Shown: positions 22,577 to 49,300 of the stretch, one piece after another | Numbering within the stretch: the first letter of the stretch is position 1 | Layout: every line of letters starts with the position of its first letter | Assembly: GCA_947175635.1 (NCBI GenBank) | Contig: CAMWNM010000004.1 | Location: 1-64,000, forward strand | DNA from: an uncultured Bacteroidales bacterium | Lineage (GTDB): Bacteria > Bacteroidota > Bacteroidia > Bacteroidales > P3 | Length of the DNA: 64,000 nt | Reading direction: 5' to 3' | Notes under the pieces: generated by a model | The model's database searches: none | What the model saw: the letters and a program-made list of their open reading frames with translations, nothing else | Told to the model about the DNA's origin: nothing | Translations under genes and position numbers: made by a program

Positions 22577-23962
22577 ATGAACCGTAGCATATCTGTCATA
22601 TTATGTATGCTTCTCTTCGGAGGAGGAACATGTGTCTTTTCCCAAAACGGGGAGAGCGACATGCTCTTGCACCGCTTTGAAGAAAGATTCAGGTTGCTGG
22701 ATTCCCTGATTTTCGCCAGGCAAGCCTCATGGGAAGACAGTTCGGTCTGGAGCGTTGAGGCAAACGATTCGCTGATGGTTGCGCAAGACACCGTGCTTAC
22801 GCCCTACGACTCGGCGCTGATGGAACTTACCCACCGACGCATCAAGGAATTCAAAGGCAAGACTGGCCTGCAACTTACCGGGCAATACTATCACCGTTTC
22901 GACCACACCGTCGGTTTCGACGAGGAGGATGATCCCCGGGCCGGCTACGACGACAAGATTCAGGTAGAACTGCGCTGGTATTTTCTACAAAGCGCCCTCT
23001 TCCGCCGCAAAGGTCATATCGAGGAAATACGCATCAAGGAAGAAATAGAGCGGACCGCCAATAAAAAAGAGTCTTTCGGCATATCGATATACCGCCAGAA
23101 AGAAAATTTCCGCTTTCTGCACGACAGCCTGCTTTCCGGTATTCTCCAGCATAGAGTGAAAAATCTGGAATTGTTGAGCGATGCCAATCAGTACCTGCTG
23201 TTCAGCGAAAACATGAGCAGCGACGAGTTACTGAAGGTACTCGATGAAAAAGCCGCCGCCGAACGCCTGCTTTCTTCGCTGCCCGAAGGATTCCCTGTGG
23301 CCGGAGATTTCTCATGCGTCGAAACCGTTTCCGTACATATCGACACAACGGCCCTGATAAACCATATCGAGGAATCCCAAGAGGAGATGCGCATGCTCTC
23401 CCTGCGCATCAAACTGCTTGAACAGCAAGAAAGCAACACGAGTTATTGGGACAACTGCCGGCTCGCACCTTTTGTGCGTTATTCCTACTATACCCGCTAT
23501 CATGATCAAAACACCTCCAATTTCGATGCGGGCCTCACTTTCACCATTCCGCTTTCGGGAGAAGCCTGCCGGAGAAAGAAGACGCTTCGGGCCGAACAGG
23601 ATGTATTGTCCGTTGAAAGAGAAACCATCGCAAGGCGCGCAATGGATCAGATACGTCTCCGATATATGGAAATCGAGCAGATGAACCGGTCCATGGAAGG
23701 GGAATACCGACGCCTCCAGGAGCTGAAAGACTATCTGAAACTCCGTCAACAGGCCTATGCGAACAGAATCGGCGAATACAGCCGTCTTTCCCGCATCAAG
23801 GAATACAATATTTATCTCCAGAGCATTGAAAAACTGCTTGAATTTCAATACCGAAGAAATTGTCTGATAACAGACCTTCAAGGGCTCCTAGCCGATGATA
23901 CCATTTTGCGCTACTGCCGCACACAGCCTTTGTCGCAAGCCGCCAACCGCCCAAGCCGATGA
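22577..23962 (+). CDS. TolC-like outer-membrane/periplasmic coiled-coil protein
   Basis: Signal peptide (MNRSISVILCMLLFGGGTCVFSQ), long coiled-coil segments, FDAGLTFTIPLSGEACRRKK strand typical of TolC-type proteins; 4-nt overlap with the next gene. Confidence 0.7.
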   Translation: MNRSISVILCMLLFGGGTCVFSQNGESDMLLHRFEERFRLLDSLIFARQASWEDSSVWSVEANDSLMVAQDTVLTPYDSALMELTHRRIKEFKGKTGLQLTGQYYHRFDHTVGFDEEDDPRAGYDDKIQVELRWYFLQSALFRRKGHIEEIRIKEEIERTANKKESFGISIYRQKENFRFLHDSLLSGILQHRVKNLELLSDANQYLLFSENMSSDELLKVLDEKAAAERLLSSLPEGFPVAGDFSCVETVSVHIDTTALINHIEESQEEMRMLSLRIKLLEQQESNTSYWDNCRLAPFVRYSYYTRYHDQNTSNFDAGLTFTIPLSGEACRRKKTLRAEQDVLSVERETIARRAMDQIRLRYMEIEQMNRSMEGEYRRLQELKDYLKLRQQAYANRIGEYSRLSRIKEYNIYLQSIEKLLEFQYRRNCLITDLQGLLADDTILRYCRTQPLSQAANRPSR

Positions 23963-25131
23963 AAAATTTCACTTACCGTTCCTCCGAAGAGAAGGAAAAC
24001 ATAGAAGCCATCCTCCGGCAACGCAGGCGGAAAATGAACCGGCAACAGCTCATTGCCGGAAGCATTCTCGGTTTGATCATACTCGGGGTGGTGCTCTATT
24101 TCGGTTATCACACCTACTATACCGAATACGACGGCTACGTCCATGTGGATGCGAACCGTGTCCGCACACCGTTCGACATCTACTTGGACAGCGTTTACGT
24201 AAAGACAGGCGATATCGTAGCGCCCGGAGATACGCTTTATTCCTACTACATGCTTGATTTGTTGGTAAAGCAGGCCAATCCCGACGAAGAATCGAATCTG
24301 GCGGCCCGCAATCGGGAAATCTCCTTGCGCTACGAAAACACCAAGCAGCAAATCAATGTGCTGAAGGTGCGCATGGAAGAAATCCAACGGCAAATCGCCA
24401 TCGATGAACACAATATCAGTTTCGGTCTGAACAACAACACGCATAAACTCGATTTGGAACGGGCCCTGAAAGAAGATGAAGCCAAGATGAAAGCCTTGCG
24501 GCACGAACAAAACGTTTTGTACCGCATGAAACGGGAAACCAGCCCCCGCTTCAACAAGAAAAGCAAGAAAAACCCCGAGGAAAACCAAGGGCAGATTTAC
24601 GACAATATCGGTTCCTCTTCCTTAAAGGGGGCCATCAACTACCGTCTGGCCGGCGATTCGTCCATCGTAACCAAGGTGAACGCCCCCAAGAGGATGATTT
24701 TCTTCACCAAGGAAGAAATCCTCACCACCCAACACTTGAACCTGGATGCCAACAACCTCCAGGTTGTAGCGTACGTACCGGTGGAAAAGATACACAAACT
24801 CACGCAACATTCCAAAGCCGAGGTGGTGGTTACGGACAAGGTGTCGTTCAACGCGCACGTTTCCGTTTTGGGACTGAGCACGGATGAGATTCCGGCCAAT
24901 CTGCAAAGCTATTTCACCAAACGCACCACGGCCCTGATTGCCGTTTTCAATCTGGAAAAAGGACAGACCGCACCTTTTTGGAGCGTAACCTCCGGACTTC
25001 CCGTAACGGTTCGCGTAAAAAATCATCCTTTCCGGAAGAAAAGACTTGAAGAGGAAGATTACCTGTGGTTTACCACCGGAGAAGGAATACGTACCCATAG
25101 CCGCCAACCTCAAACCGAAGCATCCCGATGA
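23959..25131 (+). CDS. HlyD-like periplasmic adaptor / membrane fusion protein
   Basis: N-terminal TM; GYVHVDANRVRTPFDIYLDSVYVKTGDIVAPGDTLYSY lipoyl half-motif; coiled coil; VVAYVPVEKIHKLTQHSKAEVVV. Confidence 0.82.
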   Translation: MKNFTYRSSEEKENIEAILRQRRRKMNRQQLIAGSILGLIILGVVLYFGYHTYYTEYDGYVHVDANRVRTPFDIYLDSVYVKTGDIVAPGDTLYSYYMLDLLVKQANPDEESNLAARNREISLRYENTKQQINVLKVRMEEIQRQIAIDEHNISFGLNNNTHKLDLERALKEDEAKMKALRHEQNVLYRMKRETSPRFNKKSKKNPEENQGQIYDNIGSSSLKGAINYRLAGDSSIVTKVNAPKRMIFFTKEEILTTQHLNLDANNLQVVAYVPVEKIHKLTQHSKAEVVVTDKVSFNAHVSVLGLSTDEIPANLQSYFTKRTTALIAVFNLEKGQTAPFWSVTSGLPVTVRVKNHPFRKKRLEEEDYLWFTTGEGIRTHSRQPQTEASR

Positions 25132-26552
25132 ACCAGAAGACCGAAAACAGATACCAGATCATAACGAACAACAATCGCCGCAGGATTCTGGTCATAAACG
25201 ATGTGGTGGATGTGGACCGGAAGGCGGATCTGGCTTTCGAAGACTTCGATGCCGTTTTCATCAACGTTATCGACAACCTGATGGACCGCATCATGCTTGC
25301 CATACGTCTGGCTTCTCCCTTGCTCTCGGAGAAATGCCGGTTCAAGCCTTGCTACGTTACCAAACGTTTGACGGGATGGTTGGGTAAAGCCGAAGTGATT
25401 GTGGACGGATACGCCTCCCAGCCTACCGACAGCAATATGGCCCAAGGCATTGAGGAGATTTACGCCAATATGCGGCGAATCAATTTCTTGCTTGGAACCG
25501 AACCTGTAGTGAGCCACGCCGAGGAAATTTTCCGGCTGTGCCGCTACGCCATCTCGCGCGGACAGTACACTTTTTCTTCCCACCCCACACCGGGGCTCAG
25601 CTCAGGCTATATGTCGCTCTATTACTACACCCTTTGGTTCGAAGGACAGGAAAACCAGCAGTTGGAGGAACGCGACTTTTTCCATGCCCAGCTTTTGAAA
25701 CTGGGCTATATCCGTCCCACCCGCTTTATCGACAAGATTCACGTATGTCCTGTCTGCCGCCAGAGCCACTTGCTGTTTTTCGAATGCTGCCCGAAATGCG
25801 GCAGTTCGGATATACGGGAAGAACCTGTCCTGCACCATTTCCGTTGCGCCAACGTATCGCCCGAGTCCACCTATCAGTGGGACGGAGAGCTGCGTTGCCC
25901 CAAGTGCCACCACACCCTGCGGCATATCGGTGTGGACTACGATAAACCGTCGTCCATCTTCACGTGCAGACAATGCGACGAATCGTTCATGTACCCCGAC
26001 ATGCGGGTAATCTGCCCCGAAGACAGAAGAACATGGACGACCGACGACCTGCTGCCCATCGATGTTACCGAATACGAATTCACCCCTGAAGGCATCCGTG
26101 TTTTCGCCAACTACGATATCCGCTATACCCTCAGTCAGGCAGGCTTCTACGGCTACTCCTCCATGCGCGATTTCCTGGCTTACCTGCGCATGGTTTCCAA
26201 AGCGGAAGCCAAACAGGCGGATCTTTTCGTTGTTGCGCGGTTTTACGTGTTCGATCCTGCCATGGACAACATCGTTGCCCAGGAAACCACCCCGCCCGTG
26301 GTAAAGGCCATGAGCCGTTTCTTCAACTACAAGAGCGCACTCTGGGGCAACAACTATTATTTCCTCTGCCGCGCATCCAACGGAGAATTGGCGCAAGTGC
26401 AGAGCAGGATGGAATACGAGCTCAAAAACGAGCTGAAAGATTTCCAGCAACGCCACGAAGGATTCGAATTCGAACTGGTGGACACCTACGTGTACCACCA
26501 AGGAGAAGATATGGAACAGTTCATCCACCGCATAGAAGAAGACCGGAATTAA
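25128..26552 (+). CDS. Multi-zinc-ribbon cytosolic protein resembling the TackOD1 domain
   Basis: HVCPVCRQSHLLFFECCPKCGSSDI, HHFRC, LRCPKCHHTLRHIGVDYDKPSSIFTCRQC...ICPED; no TM or signal peptide; ATGA overlap with the HlyD gene. Confidence 0.7.
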   Translation: MNQKTENRYQIITNNNRRRILVINDVVDVDRKADLAFEDFDAVFINVIDNLMDRIMLAIRLASPLLSEKCRFKPCYVTKRLTGWLGKAEVIVDGYASQPTDSNMAQGIEEIYANMRRINFLLGTEPVVSHAEEIFRLCRYAISRGQYTFSSHPTPGLSSGYMSLYYYTLWFEGQENQQLEERDFFHAQLLKLGYIRPTRFIDKIHVCPVCRQSHLLFFECCPKCGSSDIREEPVLHHFRCANVSPESTYQWDGELRCPKCHHTLRHIGVDYDKPSSIFTCRQCDESFMYPDMRVICPEDRRTWTTDDLLPIDVTEYEFTPEGIRVFANYDIRYTLSQAGFYGYSSMRDFLAYLRMVSKAEAKQADLFVVARFYVFDPAMDNIVAQETTPPVVKAMSRFFNYKSALWGNNYYFLCRASNGELAQVQSRMEYELKNELKDFQQRHEGFEFELVDTYVYHQGEDMEQFIHRIEEDRN

Positions 26553-26565
26553 CCGCCCCAAGGCC

Positions 26566-27888
26566 ATGATAGACATAGCATTCAGAATCATCGACGGCAT
26601 CGCGGCCTGTTTCACCACTAATCTGTCGTGGGACATAGTGCTGTCTATCTATTGGTTTCTCTTCTTCATAGAGTTTCCCCGCTACTATATGCTCGATGTT
26701 ATCGCCGCCATCCGGTACGGGGCCACCTGGCGCAAACGCAAAAACCGCGAAGCCATCGCCCGGCGGATGCTCTACATAGAAAAGCCGCTCATTACCGTGC
26801 TGGCTCCGGGAAAGAACGAAGGCGAACATATCTACAAGTTGGTGTGCTCCCTCAAGGAACAGACCTACCAGAATTTCGAGATCATCATTATCGATGACGG
26901 CTCGGACAATTGCTCGCCTCAAATCTGCGAAGACCTCAAACAGGCCGGTTTCATCACGAAGTTCTTCCGCATGCGGGAACGTTGCGGCAAAGCCGCGGCG
27001 GCCAACTTCGGGGTGATGCATGCCCAAGGGAAATACATCGTGCACTTAGACGCCGACAGTTCCCTTGACCGCGATGCGATAGAAAAGATATTGCTGCCTT
27101 TCTACTATGACCGCAACATAAAAGGCGTGGGCGGTTGCGTGAAAGTGCGCAATGCCGACGCCTCGCTCTGCACGGCCATGCAGGCGCAGGAATACTTGAG
27201 AACCATCCAGGTCGGCAGAATGGTTACCGACATGTTGGGTATCTACCATATCATATCGGGTGCCTTCGGCGCGTTTGAGACAGAAACCATCCGACAGGTA
27301 GGCGGTTGGGACATAGGGCCCGGCCTGGACGGGGACATTACCCAGAAATTACGCAAGGCGGGATACAAAGTGCATTTTGCGGAAAACGCCATCTGCATGA
27401 CCAATGTTCCCGAAACCTGGAGCGCGCTTTTCCGCCAACGGAAACGTTGGTCCAAATCGCTGGTCCGTTTCCGCATCCGCAAACACAGAGACATTCTTTG
27501 GTCCAACCGGAATTTCTCGTTCAGCAATATGCTCTCCAATGCCGAAAACATTGTTTACGACTTTATCCTCAACTATGTATGGTTTTTCTACATTCTGGGG
27601 CTTCTGTTCGGCAACGGGGACAGATTGCCGGAAATCATCCTCATGGGCTGGCTTATCCGTGTGGCGTTTTCCATCGTGGCCTTTATCGTTATCCAATGTG
27701 TGTCGGAACGTTCCAGAGAAGAACGTTTCCTGGGTGGATACCTTGTCCTGCACACGTTCTATATGGGCTATTTCCTACGTCTGACCCGTCTGGTGGGACA
27801 TACCGAAGAACTTTTCTTCTTCTCTTCCTACAAAGACAGCTGGAATCCGAAAAAGGTTTCCACCGTGGCGCGCATGGAAGGATTGTAG
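26566..27888 (+). CDS. Family 2 membrane glycosyltransferase (processive synthase type, PgaC/HAS-like)
   Basis: ITVLAPGKNEGEHIYKLVCSLKEQTYQNFEIIIIDDGS, VHLDADSSLD, GLDGDITQKLRKAGYKV, RQRKRW (QxxRW); flanking TM segments. Confidence 0.9.
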   Translation: MIDIAFRIIDGIAACFTTNLSWDIVLSIYWFLFFIEFPRYYMLDVIAAIRYGATWRKRKNREAIARRMLYIEKPLITVLAPGKNEGEHIYKLVCSLKEQTYQNFEIIIIDDGSDNCSPQICEDLKQAGFITKFFRMRERCGKAAAANFGVMHAQGKYIVHLDADSSLDRDAIEKILLPFYYDRNIKGVGGCVKVRNADASLCTAMQAQEYLRTIQVGRMVTDMLGIYHIISGAFGAFETETIRQVGGWDIGPGLDGDITQKLRKAGYKVHFAENAICMTNVPETWSALFRQRKRWSKSLVRFRIRKHRDILWSNRNFSFSNMLSNAENIVYDFILNYVWFFYILGLLFGNGDRLPEIILMGWLIRVAFSIVAFIVIQCVSERSREERFLGGYLVLHTFYMGYFLRLTRLVGHTEELFFFSSYKDSWNPKKVSTVARMEGL

Positions 27889-27925
27889 AACCGAAAAAGC
27901 AAAATCCAAAATGTTTAACATCAAT

Positions 27926-30052
27926 ATGAAAACAAAATTCACTTTCAAAACCAGATGGAAGCTCGCTTTTATGGCGATATGCACAGTCGGGCTGTTGACG
28001 AGTTGCGAACGTGAAGACCTCAAACGCAACAAGTCCAACACCGAAACGATCTCGATGACCCGCATCGGCGGTGCTCAGCAAGGTCGTGTGAAGAGCGTAA
28101 ACATGAAATCCAAAGCGCTGAAGAAGAAGGAAAGACTCACATGGGTGGCCAATATCACGGCGCCCACAGACCGCCAGGATCTGCTTTGGTCCGCCACCTC
28201 GGTGGCTATTCATCCATCCAACGATGCCGAACACAACCGGGTTTACATTACCTGGCATTCCAACCGCCAGGCCACCAAACCGGCTACGGCCTGGGGCGGA
28301 GCCCTCGATATCGTGGATATGTCGGGTACGCCGACCTTGGTGAATACCTATACCAGTTCACAGGCCAAATTCAACCATGCCTGGATAGCCGGCGGCGGAC
28401 AAACCTTGTTCTTGGCGTCCTCCACTTCCTATAGCGGGGGAGCCGTTGCCCGCACCGCATTGACAATCAACGGCGACTTGGTGGGCGCAAACGAGGCGGA
28501 TCTGATCGGCTTCCCCGGCTCTTCGGTGAACGCCATTGCCGAATATGACGGCAAACTGCTGGCCGTTTCAGGTTTCAACGGCACCTATGCCACCTTTGAG
28601 GCCAATATGGTTCCTCAAGCCTACAACTACATCAATCCCGCCAAGAACGTAATCACGCCCCTGACCGAAAGCATGGTCGATTTCGGCGGAAAATACGTCG
28701 TTTCCATGAACGGGAACGCCTATATTCTGCACGATGGCGGAGAGGGCGCGGTTATCACCGACATGAACGGCCGGGACATCAAAACCGATGTTCCCCTCAA
28801 ATCAGCGCCGAAATACAAGGAAATATACAACGACAAGACCGGCGAATGGGAACTCTCCGGAGAACAGTCCGCCGCTTACGGCAAGCATACCATGGCGGTC
28901 AAGGACGACTATGCCTACATCGCATGCGGATACAGCGGCCTTATCGGCGTGAATCTTTCCTCCGGTGCCATCTTCCACCGCCAGAACCTGATGACCGTAG
29001 GTCTCTGTGTCTGCGACAGTCTGCTCTTCGCCGCCACCTCCATGGGGCTGAGGATTTATCAGATCGGGGAAGACGGTTCTTTGGAACTCTATGCCTACGA
29101 AGTGGAAAGCTACGATGAAGAAACCGGCATGCCGACTTCCGTAGAAACGGCCGCCATCGGTACCGAACTGCGCCACTCGCCCAATTTCGTGACCTACGAT
29201 CCCACCTCGGGTTATATCTATGTAGCCTACGGACAAAGCGGGGTCCGTGTGTACAAATGGACGTACGAAGAACCCGAAAAAGGCATCGACATGGGCGGAG
29301 ATGTGCTCTGGTATCCCGAAAATATAGATGGGTACTATGCCTGGGGTGAAATATTCAGTTTCGAGGATCCCCAAGATTTCGCGCTTACCTACGATGGGGT
29401 AACCTATTACAACAATCGTTCTTACTACCCTGTTTCCGGGAGCAACAAAACGATAGCCGACCATAAGAACTTCAACGGCTACCACTTTACCCAAAAAAAT
29501 TCGACAAAGCTTTCCAAGTACACAAATCAGAGCAAACTGAACAGCAACGGTTTTCCCATTTCCCAAGACGGAAAAAGCGTTCTGGAACCGATGGATGACG
29601 TGGCGACCGTACGTTTGGGCGAAGGCTGGCGCATGCCGACCGAAGAAGAATGGATGGAACTGCTTGCACTGGGCTACGAAATCCGGACTGTGGGAGATAC
29701 CACCGGCATCGTTTTCAAGGCAGCAAACGGCAATGAACTCTTCCTGCCGCAAACCGGTTATTACGGATGGCGCAACGCGCATTCTTTTATCGATTCCTGC
29801 TTCTACTGGACGGCTTCCCTCAGTAAGAAGCCCAACTTCGATGAAGAAACTCATCAGTGGCGGCCAGGCGGTCAGGCCCAGTTCCCTTCCGTTGCCACCA
29901 ATATCAATCCTTGGTGCGATGAAGCCAAGGCCTCCTGCATCGTGATACCGTTGGTAGGAAATAAAAAACCCTATCTGCATCAGCACGACCGTTGCTGCGG
30001 CATGGCAATCCGCCCTGTAAAAGACAAAAAAGCAAATGATAGAAACAAATAA
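27926..30052 (+). CDS. Lipoprotein with predicted beta-propeller-like repeats and C-terminal Fibrobacter-major-paralogous-like domain (copy 1)
   Basis: Lipobox LLTSCERED; repeated YAYIACGYSGLIGVNLSSG and YIYVAYGQSGVRVYKW; GEGWRMPTEEEWMELLALG...FLPQTGYYGWRN...CFYWTASLS. Confidence 0.7.
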   Translation: MKTKFTFKTRWKLAFMAICTVGLLTSCEREDLKRNKSNTETISMTRIGGAQQGRVKSVNMKSKALKKKERLTWVANITAPTDRQDLLWSATSVAIHPSNDAEHNRVYITWHSNRQATKPATAWGGALDIVDMSGTPTLVNTYTSSQAKFNHAWIAGGGQTLFLASSTSYSGGAVARTALTINGDLVGANEADLIGFPGSSVNAIAEYDGKLLAVSGFNGTYATFEANMVPQAYNYINPAKNVITPLTESMVDFGGKYVVSMNGNAYILHDGGEGAVITDMNGRDIKTDVPLKSAPKYKEIYNDKTGEWELSGEQSAAYGKHTMAVKDDYAYIACGYSGLIGVNLSSGAIFHRQNLMTVGLCVCDSLLFAATSMGLRIYQIGEDGSLELYAYEVESYDEETGMPTSVETAAIGTELRHSPNFVTYDPTSGYIYVAYGQSGVRVYKWTYEEPEKGIDMGGDVLWYPENIDGYYAWGEIFSFEDPQDFALTYDGVTYYNNRSYYPVSGSNKTIADHKNFNGYHFTQKNSTKLSKYTNQSKLNSNGFPISQDGKSVLEPMDDVATVRLGEGWRMPTEEEWMELLALGYEIRTVGDTTGIVFKAANGNELFLPQTGYYGWRNAHSFIDSCFYWTASLSKKPNFDEETHQWRPGGQAQFPSVATNINPWCDEAKASCIVIPLVGNKKPYLHQHDRCCGMAIRPVKDKKANDRNK

Positions 30053-30074
30053 AAACCATCAAAATCAAAACATC

Positions 30075-32201
30075 ATGAAACGATTACACTTTATCATGAA
30101 AGCGGCTTTCGTTCCTGTGCTTCTGATTTCCGCCGGTTTACTGACCGGTTGTGAAAAAGAAGGCAGCAAGAAAGATCCCAACGAATCTGCCGCCAACTCG
30201 ATTGTCTTGAAAAGGAGCTCTGGCAACAAAGGTAGATTGCAGATTGTAAAACAGAGCAAAAGACTGCCCAAAAGACATCGGTTGGCTTTCGTCGCCTCTA
30301 TTTCCGCGCCCCAGGATCGGCAGGATCTGATGTGGTCGGCCACCTCGGTTGCCGTCAATCCCAACAATACGGCCGAAAACAACATCGTTTACGTAACATG
30401 GCATTCCAACTATCAGGCACAGAATCCCGCAACACAGTGGGGCGGCGCTATCGATATCGTAAACATGAATGCCGCCGAACCCACGCTCACCTCCTACATC
30501 AATTCCGGAAAGGGCCTGAAGTTCAATCATGTTCTTTATTCCGGCAATAGATTGTTCCTTTCGGTTACCAGCTCCGAATGCGGCGGGGCCATCGGCCGCG
30601 CGGAACTGAACGCGGACGGAACGGAAATTATCGGAGAGAGCCATATCGACCGCATCGGTTTTCCGGGTGCTTCGGTAAATGCCACGGCCGAATACAATGG
30701 CCAGATGTTGGCCGTATCGGGCTATCGTGGCACCTATGCCACCTTTAACGCCAATATGGAACCGATGCCTTACAATTACATCTCCCCCGAAAAGAACGAA
30801 ATCGAGCCCATGACCGAAGATATGTCTGGTTTTGGTGGAAAATACGTGCTCTCGGCCAACGGTACCGCCTACGTGCTGTATGATTCCGGCGAAGGGGCCA
30901 TCATCGAAGACATGAACGGCAACAAAACCGAGATCGGTGTGAAACTCACCTCCGCCATGAAAGACAGGGAAGTTTATAATGAAACCACCGGTGAATGGGT
31001 GCTTACAGGCGAAACGAGCAACCACTACGGCAAACACACCATGGCCATCAAAGGCGATTATGCTTACGTGGCCTGCGGCTACAACGGCTTGGTGGGCGTG
31101 AACCTCTCCACCGGCGAACAAGTTGTAAACAACAACCTGATGACCATCGGTCTGTGCGCATATGAAGACTATCTCTTCACCGCCACCGCCAGTGGTTTGC
31201 GCATCTACGAAATCCAAGACAACGGTGCCCTCAACCTCTATGCGTTCGAAGTGGAATCCTACGATGAAACCACCGGTATGCCCACTTCCGATATTCCTGC
31301 CAGCATCGAAACCAGCCTGCGCCACTCACCCAACTTCGTTGCCTACGATCCGGCCACGGGCTACATCTATGTAGCTTACGGACAGACCGGGGTACGTGTG
31401 TACAAGTTCAGAACGGACGATACCCCCGATGCCCCCGTTACGGACGGTGGCGTAGATATGGGCGGCGACATCCTCTGGGCTACCGAAGACCTCGAAGGCT
31501 ACTACGCCTGGGGAGAAATCTTCACCGCGCAGGATCAAGCCGGCACAAGCTTCACATACAACGGAACAACCTATACCAACGACGGCAGTTACTACACCTT
31601 TTCCGGCACCAACAAAACTTCCTATACGGACTATACCAACTACAAATTCTTCGACAATACGGCCAAACTGACCAAATACACCTGGCGCCACACCAACGCG
31701 GCGTTGTCGGAAGACGGTCTTACGGTATTGGAACCCCAGGACGATGCAGCCGTAGTACGTAAAGGAGACGGCTGGCGTATGCCTACTGCAGAAGAATGGG
31801 TTGCCCTGATCAACGAATGCCAAAATGAAGGCAGCATCGAAGAAACAACGCAGGACGGGGTTAAAGGTCTGCTCTTCACCGCTGCAAACGGCAACACGAT
31901 CTTCCTGCCGCAAACCGGCTATTACAATTACTCCGGTGAATTGAAAAACACCACCGACTACTATTATTGGACTTCCTCTTTGAGCACACAGATAAACCGT
32001 AACAGCGATACGCGTGAAAATCTTCCCGGCGGGTTCATCACCGGAGGAGACATTGCCAGAAGCTGGTGCGATGAATCTCTGGCCACCGTGTTCATTGCTT
32101 ATTTTGCCTACGGCAATCTGTATATTCAAAAACAGGGAAACGAACTGAACGGCTTTGACCGTTGCTACGGCATGAAAATTCGTCCCGTAAAAGACAAATA
32201 A
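30075..32201 (+). CDS. Lipoprotein paralogue of the preceding gene (copy 2)
   Basis: Lipobox LLTGCEKEG; collinear similarity to 27926-30052 along the whole length; same GDGWRMPTAEEWVALINEC...YYWTSSLS C-terminus. Confidence 0.7.
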   Translation: MKRLHFIMKAAFVPVLLISAGLLTGCEKEGSKKDPNESAANSIVLKRSSGNKGRLQIVKQSKRLPKRHRLAFVASISAPQDRQDLMWSATSVAVNPNNTAENNIVYVTWHSNYQAQNPATQWGGAIDIVNMNAAEPTLTSYINSGKGLKFNHVLYSGNRLFLSVTSSECGGAIGRAELNADGTEIIGESHIDRIGFPGASVNATAEYNGQMLAVSGYRGTYATFNANMEPMPYNYISPEKNEIEPMTEDMSGFGGKYVLSANGTAYVLYDSGEGAIIEDMNGNKTEIGVKLTSAMKDREVYNETTGEWVLTGETSNHYGKHTMAIKGDYAYVACGYNGLVGVNLSTGEQVVNNNLMTIGLCAYEDYLFTATASGLRIYEIQDNGALNLYAFEVESYDETTGMPTSDIPASIETSLRHSPNFVAYDPATGYIYVAYGQTGVRVYKFRTDDTPDAPVTDGGVDMGGDILWATEDLEGYYAWGEIFTAQDQAGTSFTYNGTTYTNDGSYYTFSGTNKTSYTDYTNYKFFDNTAKLTKYTWRHTNAALSEDGLTVLEPQDDAAVVRKGDGWRMPTAEEWVALINECQNEGSIEETTQDGVKGLLFTAANGNTIFLPQTGYYNYSGELKNTTDYYYWTSSLSTQINRNSDTRENLPGGFITGGDIARSWCDESLATVFIAYFAYGNLYIQKQGNELNGFDRCYGMKIRPVKDK

Positions 32202-32317: not shown

Positions 32318-35300
32318 ATGCTACACAAATTTTCCACACCCGTTTTCAAATACCTCCCTTCCTGCCTGAACCGGAAGCGCTTGCTTCTGGCCTGCATTTT
32401 GATTTTGCCGTTTTTCTTTCCCGGAACGGCTTCCGGACAACAAAAAAGATTAGGCGTCATCAGTGCCTATCATGAATCCGCACCTTGGCCCAAGGATCTT
32501 TTCACAGCAGTCAGTTTAAATTTAGCCGATCGGTCCGATATCATTATCGATCCCGTTTACATGAACGCCTCGCTCATTACCGACGAGAACTATCTCAACC
32601 GTACCATCGACGGCGTATTCCAACATTTCAAAAACAACAAACCCGACTACTTGCTTCTAATCGGCGGTATGACCATCACCCTACGCGACCGCATCGTGGA
32701 GGAATGGGGCGATATTCCGATGGCGATGATTTCCAAATCAGACAAATACGGCCCCCGCAACTATTATATCACCAACGATACCGCATTCATTTCGGATCAA
32801 ATGCTTCGCCCGATGGCCGACCTGCAGGGCCGGTACAACCTTACCCTTGTTCAATTTCCCGATCTGGACACGGCCACTACGGAAATGATGCTGCGAATGC
32901 AGCCTCAGATGCGGAAACTGGTTATCCTCTCCGACCCCAGTTACCAAAACCGGCACATGGCCACGAATATTCAGAAGTATCTGGCCATCAACCATCCCGA
33001 GATAACGAGCGAATGGCTTATCAGTAACAACGAAAACGTTACGCGCCTCCAATCCTATCTCACCAAATTCAATCCCGAAGTGGGATTATTGCTATGCTCC
33101 TGGTTCTACAGCCGCACCGGCACTCTCGGAGCCCAAGAAGTTCTCTCCGGAGGCGTTTCCCTGATGCCCGTTGTCAACCAACCCGTTTTCACCTTGCGGG
33201 AATCCTATCTGAAAGACGGAGCCCTCGCCGGCTACTTTCCCGACTTCGAACAAATCCGCAACTCGGTCAACAACATCATCGACAGCATGTTGAAAGGCGC
33301 CTCCATGCGCACCATTCCTTTCATCACCAGCAAAGACCTGAACGCAAGCCCAATTGTCGATTACACACAACTGCAACAAAAACAAATCCCTGCCTCGCTT
33401 TGTCCGTACAACACGAAGTTCATCAACAAACCGGTTTCTTTTTGGCAACGTTACAAATGGCAGATTGTATTGGTGTTTTTCATACTCATCGCCTTGATTC
33501 TGCTTGCATGGATCTGGCTATACTACCAACACAGGCAGATCAATTATCTGAAACTGCATCAAAACCTCATCGACAACATGCCTATCGGTTATACCCAGGC
33601 CGAAGTTTTGTTTTCCGAAGAAGGCGATGTTACCGACATACAGTATCACTCGGGCAACAACTCCTTCAAGACGCTGTTGAAAGAGAATGCCATTCCCGGC
33701 AAACCCGACAAGCTTTTCCCCGCCGAATATATATCAGGCTTCACGCAGACTATGCTGAAGACGCAAATGCCTGTAAGCTACACCTATTACTTCAACCAAA
33801 CCGATTCCTATTACGAGTTCCGCCTATATCCGCCAAAAGGAGAAAAACCCAACGAGGGCAAGATCGACATCGAGCTTTTCTGCATCAACGTCACCACACG
33901 CAGCAAAGCCGAAAACGATCTTCGGCAACTTACCCAGAAATTGGATCTGACCTTGAATCTGGCCCATATCATTCCCTGGCGTTGGGACATAAAGGAACAC
34001 AAAATCTACTGCGAGGCGCAACGGATCCTCAAACATATCGATGTAAAGGCACATTACTCCAAACGGCATGCCGCCTATGTAATCGATGAAACCGACTATC
34101 TGGACAGAATTCATCCCGACGACATCGAGCGGATCAACACTATCTTCCACAATATTTACGAAGGCCGCGCCTCCTATGCCAAAACCGAATTCCGATTGCT
34201 CTCTTCCAAAGAAAACGCACATATCTATTGGCTGGAAATCAACGCTTCCGTTACCGCTTACGATGAGCAGCATCATCCCTCCGCTCTGTCGGGTTCCCTC
34301 TTGCTTATCACCGAACGCAAAAAAAAGGAGCAGGCTTTGATAACGGCCCGTGAAAAGGCGGCCGAATCCGATCGCATGAAATCGGTGTTTCTGGCCAACA
34401 TGAGCCACGAAATACGTACCCCGCTCAATGCCATCGTGGGCTTTTCGGATTTGATCGGCCGCACCGATGATGAAGCCAAGAAACAAAAGTTCATGAACAT
34501 CATCAAAACCAACAACCAACTGCTTCTCCAACTCATCAGCGATGTGTTGGATCTTGCCAAGGTGGAAGCCAATACGCTTGATTTCTACTATCAGCCGGTG
34601 GATTTGAACGAACTTTTGCAAACCATCGAAAAATCGGTAAGTCTGCGTGTCAAACCCGAAGTGAAACTCACCTGCATTCTCGGGGCCGAGAAATGTATTA
34701 TACAGGGGGAACCCAACCGTCTCTCGCAGGTTTTGATAAACCTGCTTACCAACGCGAATAAATTTACCACACAAGGCCGTATCGACTTCGGATATGCACT
34801 GAAAGGCAAGGAAATCTATTTCTTTGTAAAAGACACCGGACTGGGTATATCCAAAGAGAATCAGGCAAAACTGTTCCAACGGTTTTCAAAGCTCAATAAT
34901 TTTGCCCAAGGCACTGGATTGGGTCTTTCCATCTGCAAGGGAATCATCGAAAAGATGGAAGGCCATATCGGTATGGAATCCGAAGGCGAGGGTTGCGGAA
35001 GTAAATTCTGGTTCACCATTCCCTACCTGCCCGTCAAAGACGAGACAACGGAAGCGGCAACGGAACAGCAACCCGTCAAAACGGTGAAGAAAAAGAATAT
35101 AACCATTCTTGTTGCCGAAGACAACGAAAACAATTACATGCTCTTCCAATCCATTCTCGAGCCCGAGTACAAACTGATCCACGCATGGGATGGAAAAGAA
35201 GCCGTGGAAATGTTCAAAGAGCAGAATCCGCAACTTATCCTGATGGACATCAACATGCCGAAAATGGACGGATACGAGGCCACCCGGGAAATCCGCAAAA

Positions 35301-35467
35301 TCTCGGCCAGCGTTCCCATCATCGCCATTACGGCATACGCTTTCGCCTCCGATCAGAAACGGGTGCTTGAAAACGGATTCAACGGTTTCATGCCCAAGCC
35401 TATCGAAGCAGACAGACTTTTGGGTGAGCTCAGATCCATTATCGGAAAAAGCTTTATCCTCCTATAA
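32318..35467 (+). CDS. Hybrid sensor histidine kinase/response regulator with substrate-binding-protein-like periplasmic sensor
   Basis: Signal/TM; periplasmic RLGVISAYHESAPWPKDLFTAVSLNLADR...; TM WQIVLVFFILIALILLAWIWLYY; FLANMSHEIRTPLNAIVGF; GTGLGLSICKGIIEKMEG; ILVAEDNENN...LILMDINMPKMDG...PKPI. Confidence 0.93.
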   Translation: MLHKFSTPVFKYLPSCLNRKRLLLACILILPFFFPGTASGQQKRLGVISAYHESAPWPKDLFTAVSLNLADRSDIIIDPVYMNASLITDENYLNRTIDGVFQHFKNNKPDYLLLIGGMTITLRDRIVEEWGDIPMAMISKSDKYGPRNYYITNDTAFISDQMLRPMADLQGRYNLTLVQFPDLDTATTEMMLRMQPQMRKLVILSDPSYQNRHMATNIQKYLAINHPEITSEWLISNNENVTRLQSYLTKFNPEVGLLLCSWFYSRTGTLGAQEVLSGGVSLMPVVNQPVFTLRESYLKDGALAGYFPDFEQIRNSVNNIIDSMLKGASMRTIPFITSKDLNASPIVDYTQLQQKQIPASLCPYNTKFINKPVSFWQRYKWQIVLVFFILIALILLAWIWLYYQHRQINYLKLHQNLIDNMPIGYTQAEVLFSEEGDVTDIQYHSGNNSFKTLLKENAIPGKPDKLFPAEYISGFTQTMLKTQMPVSYTYYFNQTDSYYEFRLYPPKGEKPNEGKIDIELFCINVTTRSKAENDLRQLTQKLDLTLNLAHIIPWRWDIKEHKIYCEAQRILKHIDVKAHYSKRHAAYVIDETDYLDRIHPDDIERINTIFHNIYEGRASYAKTEFRLLSSKENAHIYWLEINASVTAYDEQHHPSALSGSLLLITERKKKEQALITAREKAAESDRMKSVFLANMSHEIRTPLNAIVGFSDLIGRTDDEAKKQKFMNIIKTNNQLLLQLISDVLDLAKVEANTLDFYYQPVDLNELLQTIEKSVSLRVKPEVKLTCILGAEKCIIQGEPNRLSQVLINLLTNANKFTTQGRIDFGYALKGKEIYFFVKDTGLGISKENQAKLFQRFSKLNNFAQGTGLGLSICKGIIEKMEGHIGMESEGEGCGSKFWFTIPYLPVKDETTEAATEQQPVKTVKKKNITILVAEDNENNYMLFQSILEPEYKLIHAWDGKEAVEMFKEQNPQLILMDINMPKMDGYEATREIRKISASVPIIAITAYAFASDQKRVLENGFNGFMPKPIEADRLLGELRSIIGKSFILL

Positions 35468-43300: not shown

Positions 43301-46300
43301 TCATTGCGTAAACTTGTAGGTAACATTGATCCCGCCCCGGCCATTGCTGTTGTAGTATTGATTGGCGATATAGGGCTTGTTGAGCGTCATATCGTAAAAC
43401 AGCCGGACCGAAAGCTGCTGCGTGATTTCATATTCGGCATACACGTTGATGGATGTAATCAGAGCGCCCTCGGAAGGCGTGTTGTACCTTTGATCGATCT
43501 TGCGCAAGAGCCGGATATTGTCCCGGATGCTGAAATCGCCTCTGAGCACGATATCGCTGCTGATACGGCGTTTGCCCGATCCGCCGCCTGAATTGACCTT
43601 GAAGCCCACGTTCTTGATACGGTAACCGGCCCCCACGATCCATTCGCGGGTACGCAACTCGGTGATCTGGTTGTTCACGAAACTCAGTCCTATCTGACGG
43701 CTTTGCCGGTATTCGAAGTTAAAGGAAAGGTCGTTGACAAAGGTCATGCTGAGTTTGATAAGGGGGGAGAACTGTTCGCTCAACATAATCCCGTCCATCA
43801 CATAACGGGAACGGAAGTTTTCGTTCTCGTCCAGATTCTGCAGAAAGTCCGCCACATCTTTGTAAAGCAGGTTGTTGCTATAGGACCCCACGCTATAAGA
43901 GGATGTGTAGGCATGAGAGATGGAAAAATTCTTGAACACCTTCCGCATGGCTTTGATCTTGGTAAGCCCCGAATAGGTTACCGACCAGTTGGGCATCGGG
44001 AACTTATCGAAGGCCGAAAGCGAAACCTTCTGCGGATCCCGCCCCGTGTAAGCGGCAATCAAAGCGGGAAGCAGCACATCCGGATTGGAAGAATTGTAAC
44101 CTTGCGGGAAATAGCCGCCGGCCACCGTATCGTACACATATACGGAAGGATCATAACCGGGCGTCTTGTTGTCTTGCGCCAGACGTTCGGCTATCACGAT
44201 ACGGTTGTCGAGAAAGGCCTGATAGGTTTTGTCGAAATAATCCTTGTCGTACTGCCGGAAAGCGGTTCCTATCATCACGTTGGTAACCGTATAGCTTCCG
44301 GTCATGATCGGGTTGGTCTCGAAGAAATCTCCGTATTGGCTGTTGTAGGTATAGTAGGAAGAATTGTTTTCCACCTTGCTGTAGCCGAAATTCACCGTGA
44401 CGCGGAAATCGTTGAATGGTTCAAGCGATACTTGGGCGGTAACATTTTCGGTAAACATCTTGTAATACGGCTGCGTAAGCAGACTGTCGGTAGAAAGCCA
44501 GCCGTTCAGGGCCGCCCGCCGACGGATGTCGGCTTGCGAACCGAACAAGGCGAATCCCGCTCCGGGCGCATCATGGGAAAAGTTTATCCCGAAAAGATCC
44601 GGCTCCGGCATAAAACCGGGCAGCGAGGTACCCTGATTACGGGTCCAGCTGATATTGGCATCGCGCACCATCATCAAGAAACGCAAGGCTCCCTTATAGA
44701 AAGTCTGCCAGCCCCGGCCTTTCTCTTTTTCTTCCTCCTGCGTCTGCCGTCCCATCACCGTATTGCTCCGCGTGTTACGGCCCTTGCGCCGGTTGGCTTC
44801 GTTTATCTTCTTCAGGAACGGCACCTTGTTGTACAGACCCACCAGATTCGCCGAACCGTTGGCCGAAATGTCCATCGAGTTCGAAATCGTGTTTCCCAGC
44901 CGCGCCTGCGTGGCCAAAGCGCCACCCTCCCAACGGTACAGGGCATTGTAGGCCGCACTTCCCTCAATCCAGTCGAAAATGGGTATCTTGTTGATGGGCA
45001 ATGTGTAGGTAGCCCCCACATTCTGGTCGTAGTTGGTTTTCCGGCCGCCTTGGATGAAACTCCGCCATACCGAATCCCGTTTGTCGGCGGTATTGATGCG
45101 GCCCGGAGGTTCGTTCAGATAGGAATTGGCGTTGGCCGAATAATTGAAGCTGAGCGATTTGGTAATATCGTAGCGGAAATTGTAATTGCGGTTCCAATCG
45201 AAACGCTTGTAGCTTGTGGCCGGCATCACGATATCCCAATCGGCGTTTTTGTTGCGCATCTTGCTTTCCGAATATTCGCGTTCCAGATCCATGTTGAACG
45301 AGAACATATTGGGTATATAGTTCACATTGAAATCCGTGATGATCGCCGCCCACGGACTGGAGGCCATTTTGGTTTTTTCCAACGGTACAAAGAACTTGGA
45401 TGCCGTGGAATAATCGTATCCGAAACCGCCCCGGTGCGTTACCTGATCATCGTATTCCATATCCTCGTCGCGATGTTTCACGCTGGAGTAGGCATAGGAG
45501 AAATTGAAGTTCTCGATATCCCAGAACTGCGGCATCTTCTCGGCATTGGTACGTTCCTTGCGCACGTTCATCAAGTTCACGTTCTGACGGATGGTGTAAT
45601 CCTGAATCTGTTTCTTGAACGCTTTTTTCTCTTCCTTGGTCTGCAGGTTCTGCAATTCGTGCTTGGTCTTTACGTCCGGATCGAGCGGATTGTATTTGGG
45701 ATCACTCACGGTAGTGGACAAATCGTAGTGTACGGGCAATTTAACACCGGCTTTCTCGGGCAGGAAACGTCCCATTTCCAAATCCACGGCTATATCGTAA
45801 GAGCCGGTATTGCTTTGGGAAAGTTCGGTAAGCTTCTGCTCCAACTGTCCGAAATTGGCCTGCGTATAGGAACCGGCTACCGAAATGGAGCCTACATCGC
45901 CCAAGGTAAGCCGTGCACGTGCCATGGCCGCCACCCCGCCCTCTTTCTTAAACTCATTGAGACTGAATTCGTTTATCCAGACTTCCACGTTCTTGGCCCG
46001 TCCGTCATCCGAGTCGCCTTGCCGTTTCTTTGGATTGCGCAGACCTATCGTGATACATTTCACCGCGCTGATGGAGGGCGTACCTTTGATGGAGTACACA
46101 GCCTTGCCTATCTGCTCGGAATACACGGCAGTATAAGACGTGGTACCCTGTTCGCGCATCAACTGGTTCCGCCTTTCCTTCACGCCCACCAACTGGCTCA
46201 AGTCTATTTCGACCTTGTTGGCTTCCGGCCACACCAACTCCCTCGCGCTCTGCCCCCATTCGGTATAACTGAGCGGTATCTCATATTCGTAAAAATTGGT

Positions 46301-49300
46301 GATGTTGTCGGCCCCCAGACGAACGAAAAGGGTAACGTCTCCATCCACGGCATTGTCCAATTCGTTCACCTTTTCCATGTGCACGAACATCTCCACCTTC
46401 TTGAACTGCCGCATGTCGTAAGAGGTGTTCTTATAGATTCCGCGGGCATCGCCGTCGGCCAGATTGGTTACCCGCAGACTCAACGACTGTTCGTTCATCT
46501 CCACATTATTCTGCGCCGAAGGATCGAGCATACGTTCGATACCCGGAGGCAATACATAGCGGATAGGCGTGCGCTGGCCGTTTTCCTCCACATTGACCGT
46601 AGATACCTCAAATGTGGTTTCACCCGATCCTGACACGTATTCACCATCCTCCAGAAGCGAATTCTCGTACTTACGCCAATCGGAACGCACCAAATCGAGC
46701 GAAGCGAAACGCAGAATCACCGGTTCCTTAAATCCCTTGAGGAACATACGCAGAAAACGCACAGATTGCAGGTTCTGCATCTGCCCCACCACCCGGCTCG
46801 GCTCCTTTACCGGCACTTTAAACTGATACCATTTCACCCGCTCGGTATTGTTGTTGCTCAGCTTCACGCTGGCCTCATACATATCGGTGATAAAGTTTTC
46901 CCCCACCCTCATATGCTCGGGATCGAGCTGTATCTCGTATTGGTAGTAGTTTTCGGCTTCGTTGAGCGTATTGTCTTCGCTGATGTCTTCGGTATTGGGA
47001 TAATTGCTCTGCTGGGTAGGATAACTTTCGGGATTGTCGGCATTGGAGGGAGAGTTGCCCTCGGGATTGTTGTAGTATTTGTAGCGGTCGGCGATTTTGT
47101 TGGACGAATGCTGCACGGTATCCCAGAAACCCCGGCGGAAGTAAAAATAGTCGTCGGAAGCCGGGTCGTTGTAGAGTTTGCGGTAAGCCTCCGAATTCTG
47201 CCCCGCGATCTGCCCCATTTCGTTGAGGAAAGTGGCGAAGAACGCCCTTTCGTCCGTACTCGAAAGCCCGTCAAGCCCCACGTCCTGATATTTCCGCGAG
47301 GCGGGGTCGTTGTCGAAACTGTTTACGATTGCCTGAATGGAAGGCACGCGTCCCCATTGGGTCTCATCCACATTCTCCACCACAGCCGATGTGGGCAGAC
47401 CGTTCTCGAAAGACTTACGTCCGTCGCGCAATACATCTTCGGATATATCGCCCAGATTGAAATACAGCTTACCGCCCGAATGCATCGGATTGCCGTTTGT
47501 GCCGTCCATATCGATAAAGGGATCCATCACCCAGAACTCTATGTATTCCACATTGGCGGCTTCAAAATCGGTGTTGCTCATCTTACGCATGACCCCGCCC
47601 CAACGGCTTTCGGGCTCCTTCAGGCTTCCGTCCGGATTGGCACCGGCCGTTACCGCGGTGGGTAAAGCATCGTAGTTGTACGGTCCGCGTTCGGATGGAT
47701 AGAAAGCAAGATTGAGCACCGTCAAGGCCTGGGCTTCGCTGGAAGAAAGCTGACGTCCGGGAAAAACCTCGTTTACCAGCACCCGGCGGGAATAATGGTT
47801 GGACAGATCTTCCTTGGTAATGTTACCCGGACGGGCACTGCTGTAAAAGATGGGATCGATGGTGTACCAGGCCAGCTTGGCGCGGTTCCGCCCCGTGATG
47901 GTGGTAGAGGCGTATCCGTCGGCCGACTCGGGGAACAAATCATTTTGCTTCTGCGGCGTGCTGGCCAGATACCACGAATAAGGTTCCTTGAGATTGATCG
48001 TGCTCTTGCTGCTCTCGAAATCATCGATATAGGTTGTACCCGATTTACCGATGGCGCGGGAATGTCCCGGCAGGAAATGGGCGAATTCCCCGTACAGGCT
48101 GATACGGGAAGCGGCCTTGCTGTCTTCAAAAGGCAGTATGGCGTCCACCGCCTTGGTAAGCCAACGGCTTTCGCGGTCGTATGAGGCATCGAAACCGTAT
48201 ATGGTATTGGATATAGGCTCTTCGCCGTAATTTACCTTTTGCGTAAGCGAACTTTGGCGGAGGTTCATCAACGTACCGCCCACATAGAAATGCTCATCGA
48301 AGAAATGTTCCACCCGCAAGCCCATCATCCGTTTGGTGAGCAGACTGTTCGACATGCTTTCAGTCTTGATGTCGATAGGCACGCCTGAATTCAACACCCC
48401 CTGATTGATGATCTGCACGATACCGGAAGCATAGTTCACCGTATAGTCCTGATTCTCCACCAACGGGGTGTTGCCGGCCATCACCTTTACCGAACCTTCG
48501 GGCAGATTGTAAGCGCCCAAGCTGATCTCGCTACCGCCCGAAGACTGGTAGCTGCCCACAAACGAATACTTGTTCTTTTCGCTGTATTGCTGCGCTTCCG
48601 TTTTGGTCTTGCGGTAGAGTTCGTCGAAGCGGTACTTGGCCGCCTGCACGCTGTCTCCGCCGAACATTTCCACCAAGTCCTTCCCGAAAGGTTCCGGCCA
48701 TGGCAGATACACCAGTCCCTTGTCGGCCTGTATGTAGCCCGCACCCGTGGCCGCCCCGTCCAGATAGTCGAAAAGTCCGTCCGGATTCCGGTTCTGCCGG
48801 GTATCGAGATTATCCACGCCAAAAACCTGTATCAGCGGAACACCGCTTCTCGGACCGTCGGTAAAATAGCCGCTGGGCACCCCGCGTTCATTGCCCGAAT
48901 ACATGATATTGAAACGGAATTTGTCGCCGCTCAACTGGTAGGTGTTGAGCGAATACACGTTCTTCATCATCAGGTCCCAGAGCGGAAGCTCGGTATTGAG
49001 AACCGAAGATTTAAGCAATTTCACTATCAACACCTGCGGGTCGTTGATACCCTGGTCGGAAAATTCCCCCACCTGATACACCGCCGTATCGCCCACTATC
49101 TGGTACTGGAAGGCCACGGCCAACACCTGATCGCTGCTTAAGGACTGATTGAGCGTGATGAAACCCAGACGCGGGTTGTACGTATACTCGGAGGCGTCCA
49201 ATCTACGGGCGCTTTCCACTTTCTCGAACTCCTGTCCGTTGGTGATGCCCCTTCCTGTCAGATACTGCCCCACCGAATTGAGATTCCGCAAACTTCCCTT

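Follow-up and report, generated by a model that had tools for sequence, protein, structure and literature searches.

A TackOD1 zinc-ribbon protein with a degenerate GGDEF-like domain is encoded in a conserved OEP-HlyD-GT2 operon of Bacteroidota

The best-studied synthase-dependent exporters are run by c-di-GMP, which acts through PilZ, PelD, BcsE or PgaCD. In DgcZ of Escherichia coli, a zinc-binding CZB domain governs both the GGDEF domain of the protein and poly-GlcNAc (PMC8262984). A survey of synthase-dependent operons mentions neither HlyD, TolC nor TackOD (PMC7112194). The TackOD1 domain (PF18551, arCOG06883) is defined by 11 conserved cysteines arranged as five CxxC units plus an HxxC; its fusion or linkage to receivers is usual but not obligatory, its function has been called obscure, and bacteria are mentioned only in passing (Galperin et al. 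2018, PMC5847659). In Thaumarchaeota the domain has been located in type IV pilus loci (PMC4858521). Our literature search found TackOD1 or PF18551 named only in PMC5847659 and met no description of a TackOD1 operon of the kind reported here; most subscription papers lay outside its scope, and an earlier description is possible.

Here we analyse a stretch of 64,000 nucleotides (the window) from the genome of an uncultured Bacteroidales bacterium (contig CAMWNM010000004.1, positions 1 to 64,000). On its forward strand a co-directional run of genes opens with a TolC/OEP-like outer-membrane channel protein of 461 residues (22577..23962; Pfam OEP, E=5e-4; signal peptide recognized by eye). It continues with a HlyD/EmrA-type periplasmic adaptor of 390 residues (23959..25131), in which one N-terminal transmembrane segment is discernible by eye, a TackOD1 protein of 474 residues with an ATG start (25128..26552), and a membrane GT2 polysaccharide synthase of 440 residues resembling PgaC, hyaluronan synthase (HAS) and chitin synthases (26566..27888). 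The HlyD stop and the TackOD1 start share the tetranucleotide ATGA at 25128-25131, an overlap of 4 nt, and only 13 nt separate the TackOD1 stop from the GT2 start. The coupling to HlyD and GT2 and the membership of an export operon, both claimed in an earlier note on this DNA, thus hold, with OEP, HlyD and GT2 co-directional and their order kept in relatives. The run extends into two overlapping paralogous lipoprotein genes (713 residues, 27911..30052, lipobox LTSC; 721 residues, 30036..32201, lipobox LTGC; both lipoboxes assigned by eye) with weak Pfam matches to LVIVD/FISUMP, and ends with a hybrid histidine kinase of 1049 residues (32318..35467) composed of an ABC_sub_bind-like sensor, PAS, HisKA, HATPase and REC. 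Two relatives of the same genus (loci L007 and L008) retain the whole run, with the kinase at 56% identity and in the same place in both; it is a possible input kinase for the TackOD1 module. The lipoproteins, which lie 3' of GT2 in the window genus, are lineage-specific accessory genes of the module, and DUF4114 lipoproteins occur near it in other clades (L053, L102). Elsewhere in the window, the reverse strand encodes a 2431-residue open reading frame (43301-50596) whose translation, by eye, resembles the type IX secretion protein SprA.

The window GT2 displays the motifs DAD (residues 162-164), DGD (255-257) and QRKRW (291-295), and among 71 module GT2s the DxD (D162/D164), DGD and QRxRW motifs are invariant. 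Since the PgaC/IcaA model TIGR03937 scores 158.6 bits, under its equivalog cut-off of 422, the enzyme is not PgaC. Among PDB entries, GT2 matches hyaluronan and chitin synthases, and, as far as sequence can tell, these motifs and matches mark it as a processive polysaccharide synthase of the membrane. All 18 module adaptors searched contain HlyD_3 (best E=7.8e-11), and in the PDB the adaptor-family profile finds EmrA and a protein of the MFP family (8dck); OEP is found in 13 of 17 module channel proteins (best E=3.4e-7). Pfam searches returned no PilZ match in the window TackOD1, HlyD or GT2 proteins, and the window operon encodes no periplasmic hydrolase or modifying enzyme. In most relatives the OEP gene (for example L064:4501-6633) specifies about 700 residues, including a C-terminal extension that the 461-residue window OEP lacks. 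The extension bears GIHLDxEPH and gives weak GH18-like matches, by which it may be a hydrolase that trims the polymer, fused to the channel. Several modules hold a UDP-glucose/GDP-mannose-type dehydrogenase inside or beside the operon, inserted between HlyD and TackOD1 in L102, L120, L142 and L052-L055, which hints at uronate-containing polymers in those clades only. The window genome encodes two dehydrogenases over cut-off, both outside the operon.

The distribution of TackOD1 proteins scoring over cut-off is patchy: the genus has them in 3 of 13 genomes and the order in 8 of 295, and among 396 genomes drawn from the phylum about 12 encode one. A GTDB scan with the single sequence gave no relatives; with an alignment as query it gave 381, and 80 loci were retained for gene-order counts, nearly all from Bacteroidota, plus one Nitrospirota and one Desulfuromonadales genome. 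Counting only loci whose contig has room, GT2 is the next gene after TackOD1 in 70 of 71, HlyD precedes it in 72 of 73, and OEP lies upstream in all 68. Most intergenic gaps within the module range from -8 to +50 nt, and the order OEP-HlyD-TackOD1-GT2 recurs in the Nitrospirota and Desulfuromonadales genomes. The listed exceptions, L089 and L122, reflect calling or spacing effects, as all four parts were found by six-frame search. In other Desulfobacterota the parts are reordered to TackOD1-GT2-OEP-HlyD (L169, L172), and in L173 an epimerase-like gene is inserted among the reordered parts. Moreover, the 8 order genomes, out of 295, that encode TackOD1 over cut-off are precisely those with a module-type HlyD (above 200 bits, the next best scoring 59). 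Given the order counts, the Desulfobacterota reordering and this co-occurrence, the linkage is close to obligate and survives rearrangement. Two Desulfobacterota loci, L171 and L174, encode TackOD1 with no adjacent GT2, so being a synthase subunit is not the domain's only role. The hosts of TackOD1 modules include culturable Roseivirga, Prolixibacter, Tenacibaculum, Salibacter and Crocinitomix. A GTDB record titled Candidatus Kuenenia (L137) carries a module much like the Fluviicola-type one of Bacteroidota and is probably a misnamed bin.

We consider it probable that the TackOD1 protein is a cytosolic regulatory subunit or scaffold of a synthase-dependent exopolysaccharide exporter. Such an exporter would consist of the GT2 polymerase in the inner membrane, the HlyD-type periplasmic adaptor and the TolC/OEP-type channel in the outer membrane. 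The zinc-ribbon array and the GGDEF-like domain would dock on the cytosolic face of GT2 and/or on the short cytosolic N-terminus of HlyD, and the docked protein would either gate polymerization or keep the complex assembled. We think c-di-GMP improbable as the signal and see two candidates, a protein-protein input from two-component partners and the metal or redox state of the cysteines. We consider the two-component input because a true REC is fused to TackOD1 in one clade and a hybrid kinase is encoded in the window operon.

The identity of the central domain (residues 154-317; 25587..26078), which the earlier note had proposed from the cysteine pattern, was borne out by a profile search against the Pfam model: the window protein scores 148.5 bits with PF18551 (E=2.1e-43), where 32 bits is the cut-off. 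The motifs listed there were likewise all located in the 474-residue reading frame, with CPVC at residues 207-210, CCPKC at 220-224, CPKC at 257-260, CRQC at 280-283 and the segment LRHIGVDYDKPS at 264-275. NCBIfam has no model for the TackOD1 protein, and a PDB sequence search gave no significant match to any solved chain. Sub-threshold Pfam matches to the zinc-ribbon models DUF7836, HypA and DZR are accounted for by TackOD1, and weak TackOD1 matches elsewhere in the window genome, such as one of 19.8 bits to a DnaJ-looking reading frame (G000:C35), were set aside as zinc-finger cross-matches. The Cys/His ligand positions fall at residues 207, 210, 221, 224, 236/237, 240, 257, 260, 280, 283, 296 and 299, the last being Asp: the final ligand pair reads CPED (C299 to D), and 10 of the 11 family cysteines are present. 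Both same-genus relatives have CPTS here, and most other homologues a CxxC; in an alignment of 78 homologues the last Cys departs only in the window protein (P0001, Asp) and a same-genus relative (Ser). Three zinc sites are predicted, of which the third would be CCCD in the window protein. Thirteen Cys/His positions in this alignment are near-invariant, much more so than other parts of the protein, and the HHFxCA and G(V/I)DYDKP motifs of TackOD1 homologues are conserved to the same degree. Orthologues in relatives are 77% and 65% identical to the window protein; this identity, the near-invariant zinc ligands and the gene order kept across phyla show that the reading frame is not a product of chance.

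Such strict conservation of the ligands would also be expected by an alternative in which the cysteines sense metal or oxidants and the GGDEF-like domain relays their state to switch the synthase, as the CZB domain does in DgcZ; a zinc module beside a GGDEF fold, together with a GT2 that resembles PgaC, parallels that protein (PMC8262984). Zinc ribbons, however, are mostly structural, the equal conservation of HHFxCA and G(V/I)DYDKP points to a binding surface over labile metal, and the window protein, presumably functional, has exchanged C299 for Asp. We regard zinc or redox sensing by the array as unlikely, while giving it some weight.

The C-terminal part of the protein (residues ~346-474; 26163..26549) had been described simply as an alpha/beta region, which proved incomplete. 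Pfam GGDEF (PF00990) does not match the window TackOD1 protein at E<=1, but 6 of 21 homologues give sub-threshold matches and one (L099) exceeds the cut-off, with 29.2 versus 23.8 bits (E=9.4e-7, residues 341-450). The AF2 model of the homologue L064 was confident (pLDDT 87.4) and matched GGDEF structures of diguanylate cyclases with probability 1.00, E to 1e-6 and TM up to 0.74. The window protein's own AF2 model (pLDDT 72.6) follows the strand-helix order of the GGDEF topology at modest confidence. In a fold search this low-confidence model returned nothing below E=0.001; its best meaningful PDB matches were SiaD (E=0.04, probability 0.99) and PelD, both weak, and a profile comparison of the window C-domain with that of the family was not significant. 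Where the GG(D/E)EF active-site motif would stand, the window protein reads WGNNYYF, and the motif is missing throughout the 78-homologue alignment. As judged from the homologue matches and the predicted structures, the C-terminal region of TackOD1 proteins is a degenerate and, in our reading, catalytically dead GGDEF fold devoid of the GGDEF motif; for the window protein, whose own match is weak, the assignment leans on whole-protein homology. Forms from Desulfobacterota, such as that of L171 with RKVDLLSRFQQDMVWLLLPQTG, look nearer to a classical GGDEF domain and may bind c-di-GMP. In L171:9335-10861(-) and L174:6468-7910, a near-canonical C-terminal GGDEF-like domain (RKVDLLSRFQQD) is found with no GT2 nearby; these two loci are a second context for the TackOD1 domain.

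Alternatively, the degenerate GGDEF domain could be a receptor for c-di-GMP or a different nucleotide, bound at an RxxD resembling an I-site as in PelD and BcsE. The Arg at the -3 position of this motif is present in 27 of the 78 homologues, but the window protein has no RxxD, nor have most members of its order. Profile searches found no GGDEF protein in the window genome or in 19 other TackOD1-bearing Bacteroidota genomes, the single weak match among them being the TackOD1 protein itself. Among 47 further genomes, real GGDEF repertoires are confined to the hosts from Desulfuromonadales (14 matches) and Nitrospirota (11), a point in favour of such a receptor; all Bacteroidota matches map by coordinates to TackOD1 proteins. 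Since none of 65 TackOD1-bearing Bacteroidota genomes, those with an RxxD included, contains any other GGDEF domain, c-di-GMP is unlikely to be the signal in Bacteroidota. For the window protein, c-di-GMP sensing was rejected as a candidate on the lack of both the RxxD and GGDEF genes in its genome, and, by the evidence of these sequences, c-di-GMP is unlikely to be its signal. We regard a nucleotide-receptor role of the degenerate GGDEF domain as improbable.

The N-terminal region of about 110 residues (residues ~17-121; 25176..25490) had been taken to lack a receiver, and in part rightly so. Response_reg of Pfam does not match the window TackOD1 protein and the phospho-acceptor position, within FINVID, is Asn; a canonical receiver was therefore ruled out. 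The region is nonetheless receiver-like: it aligns with the family N-domain (hhalign, E=7e-4), which displays a reduced receiver-like order of strands and helices in a homologue AF2 model and a receiver-like register, DAxIID. The profile comparison of the family N-domain with REC (hhalign, E=0.38, Prob 0.16) failed to prove a receiver by sequence. Secondary-structure order and alignment register suggest a reduced receiver-like domain devoid of the phospho-acceptor. In one clade this N-domain is a separate open reading frame and the TackOD1 protein carries a true REC instead; Response_reg is found on the TackOD1 proteins of 6 of 21 homologues (3.7e-25). The description of the protein as stand-alone in the earlier note hence applies to the window protein, but not to the clade with canonical REC fusions. 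REC genes lie near the module in 20 of 49 loci, against a background of 6 of 168 per gene, and the enrichment is not clear. One Bacteroidota genome (G530, contig C116; L052 and L061) carries both N-terminal types: of its two TackOD1 modules, which lie on opposite strands at a distance of about 15 kb, one has the receiver-like domain and the other a true REC.

These N-terminal domains also bear on whether the TackOD1 protein merely organizes GT2 with the HlyD/OEP conduit and switches nothing. Its obligate co-occurrence and fixed position would suit such a scaffold, as would the precedent of BcsE, which brings BcsRQ to the Bcs complex (PMC7439463), but the receiver-like domain, the REC fusions (6 of 21) and the GGDEF fold suggest a signal input, and we see little chance that scaffolding is its only role. 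That OEP and HlyD form an independent small-molecule or protein exporter, with GT2 and TackOD1 as mere neighbours, is very improbable: HlyD relatives do include EmrA and hemolysin D, adaptors of such exporters, but, GT2 aside, the four-gene core has no energizing inner-membrane pump, the genes remain grouped in three phyla even when reordered, and none of 295 genomes has the module HlyD without TackOD1.

Regulation of a synthase-dependent exporter by the TackOD1 protein is the reading we retain. We hold more tentatively, at somewhat under an even chance, that OEP-HlyD-TackOD1-GT2 is an undescribed exporter class controlled by TackOD1-GGDEF* across Bacteroidota, Nitrospirota and Desulfobacterota, in which the Bacteroidota would have lost c-di-GMP in favour of two-component and/or zinc-thiol input and kept the GGDEF fold purely as an allosteric module between proteins, in cells devoid of c-di-GMP enzymes. 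If true, this would add a regulatory type to the synthase-dependent exporters, and a GGDEF fold kept without any diguanylate cyclase would bear on the evolution of such receptors. The conserved four-gene context makes a role for TackOD1 concrete and open to test, and it offers hosts that can be cultured.

The window protein and archaeal TackOD1 (PMC5847659) share the same domain by HMM, with the CxxC array and HxxC, and both stand-alone and REC-fused versions exist. In contrast, the module protein has a GGDEF-like C-terminal domain and resides in a GT2/HlyD/OEP operon, and the last Cys of the family is Asp in the window protein. As for a regulator of the synthase in the place that PilZ occupies elsewhere, the tie to GT2 is supported by adjacency (70 of 71) and by the Desulfobacterota reordering, and direct regulation is what we infer from it; PilZ, though, is not the closest analogue. 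BcsE and PelD are closer, because the flanks of the TackOD1 domain are a receiver-like domain and a degenerate GGDEF fold. BcsE (PMC7439463) is likewise cytosolic, combines a degenerate receiver with a degenerate GGDEF domain (REC*-GGDEF*) and serves a synthase-dependent exporter, but no zinc-ribbon array has been described in it and it binds c-di-GMP via an RxxD that the window protein lacks. PelD (GAF-GGDEF*; PMC8461298) is also a regulator with a degenerate GGDEF domain, encoded alongside an exopolysaccharide system; it differs in being membrane-anchored, in its GAF domain, in binding c-di-GMP and in its GT4 partner, PelF. Alginate Alg8/Alg44 (PMC8461298) resembles the module in its GT2 polymerase, membrane-fusion-type adaptor and cytosolic regulatory domain, and in the nucleotide-sugar dehydrogenase linked to some TackOD1 modules. 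There, however, PilZ is fused to the adaptor and AlgE forms the channel, whereas the TackOD1 module has a separate protein, no PilZ and a TolC-like channel. The nearest export-side architecture is the XcsAB-TolC model of cyanobacterial cellulose export (PMC12430437), which also joins a GT2 to an HlyD-like adaptor and a TolC-like channel; its genes can be scattered and its GT2 has PilZ, whereas the TackOD1 module is a compact operon with TackOD1-GGDEF*.
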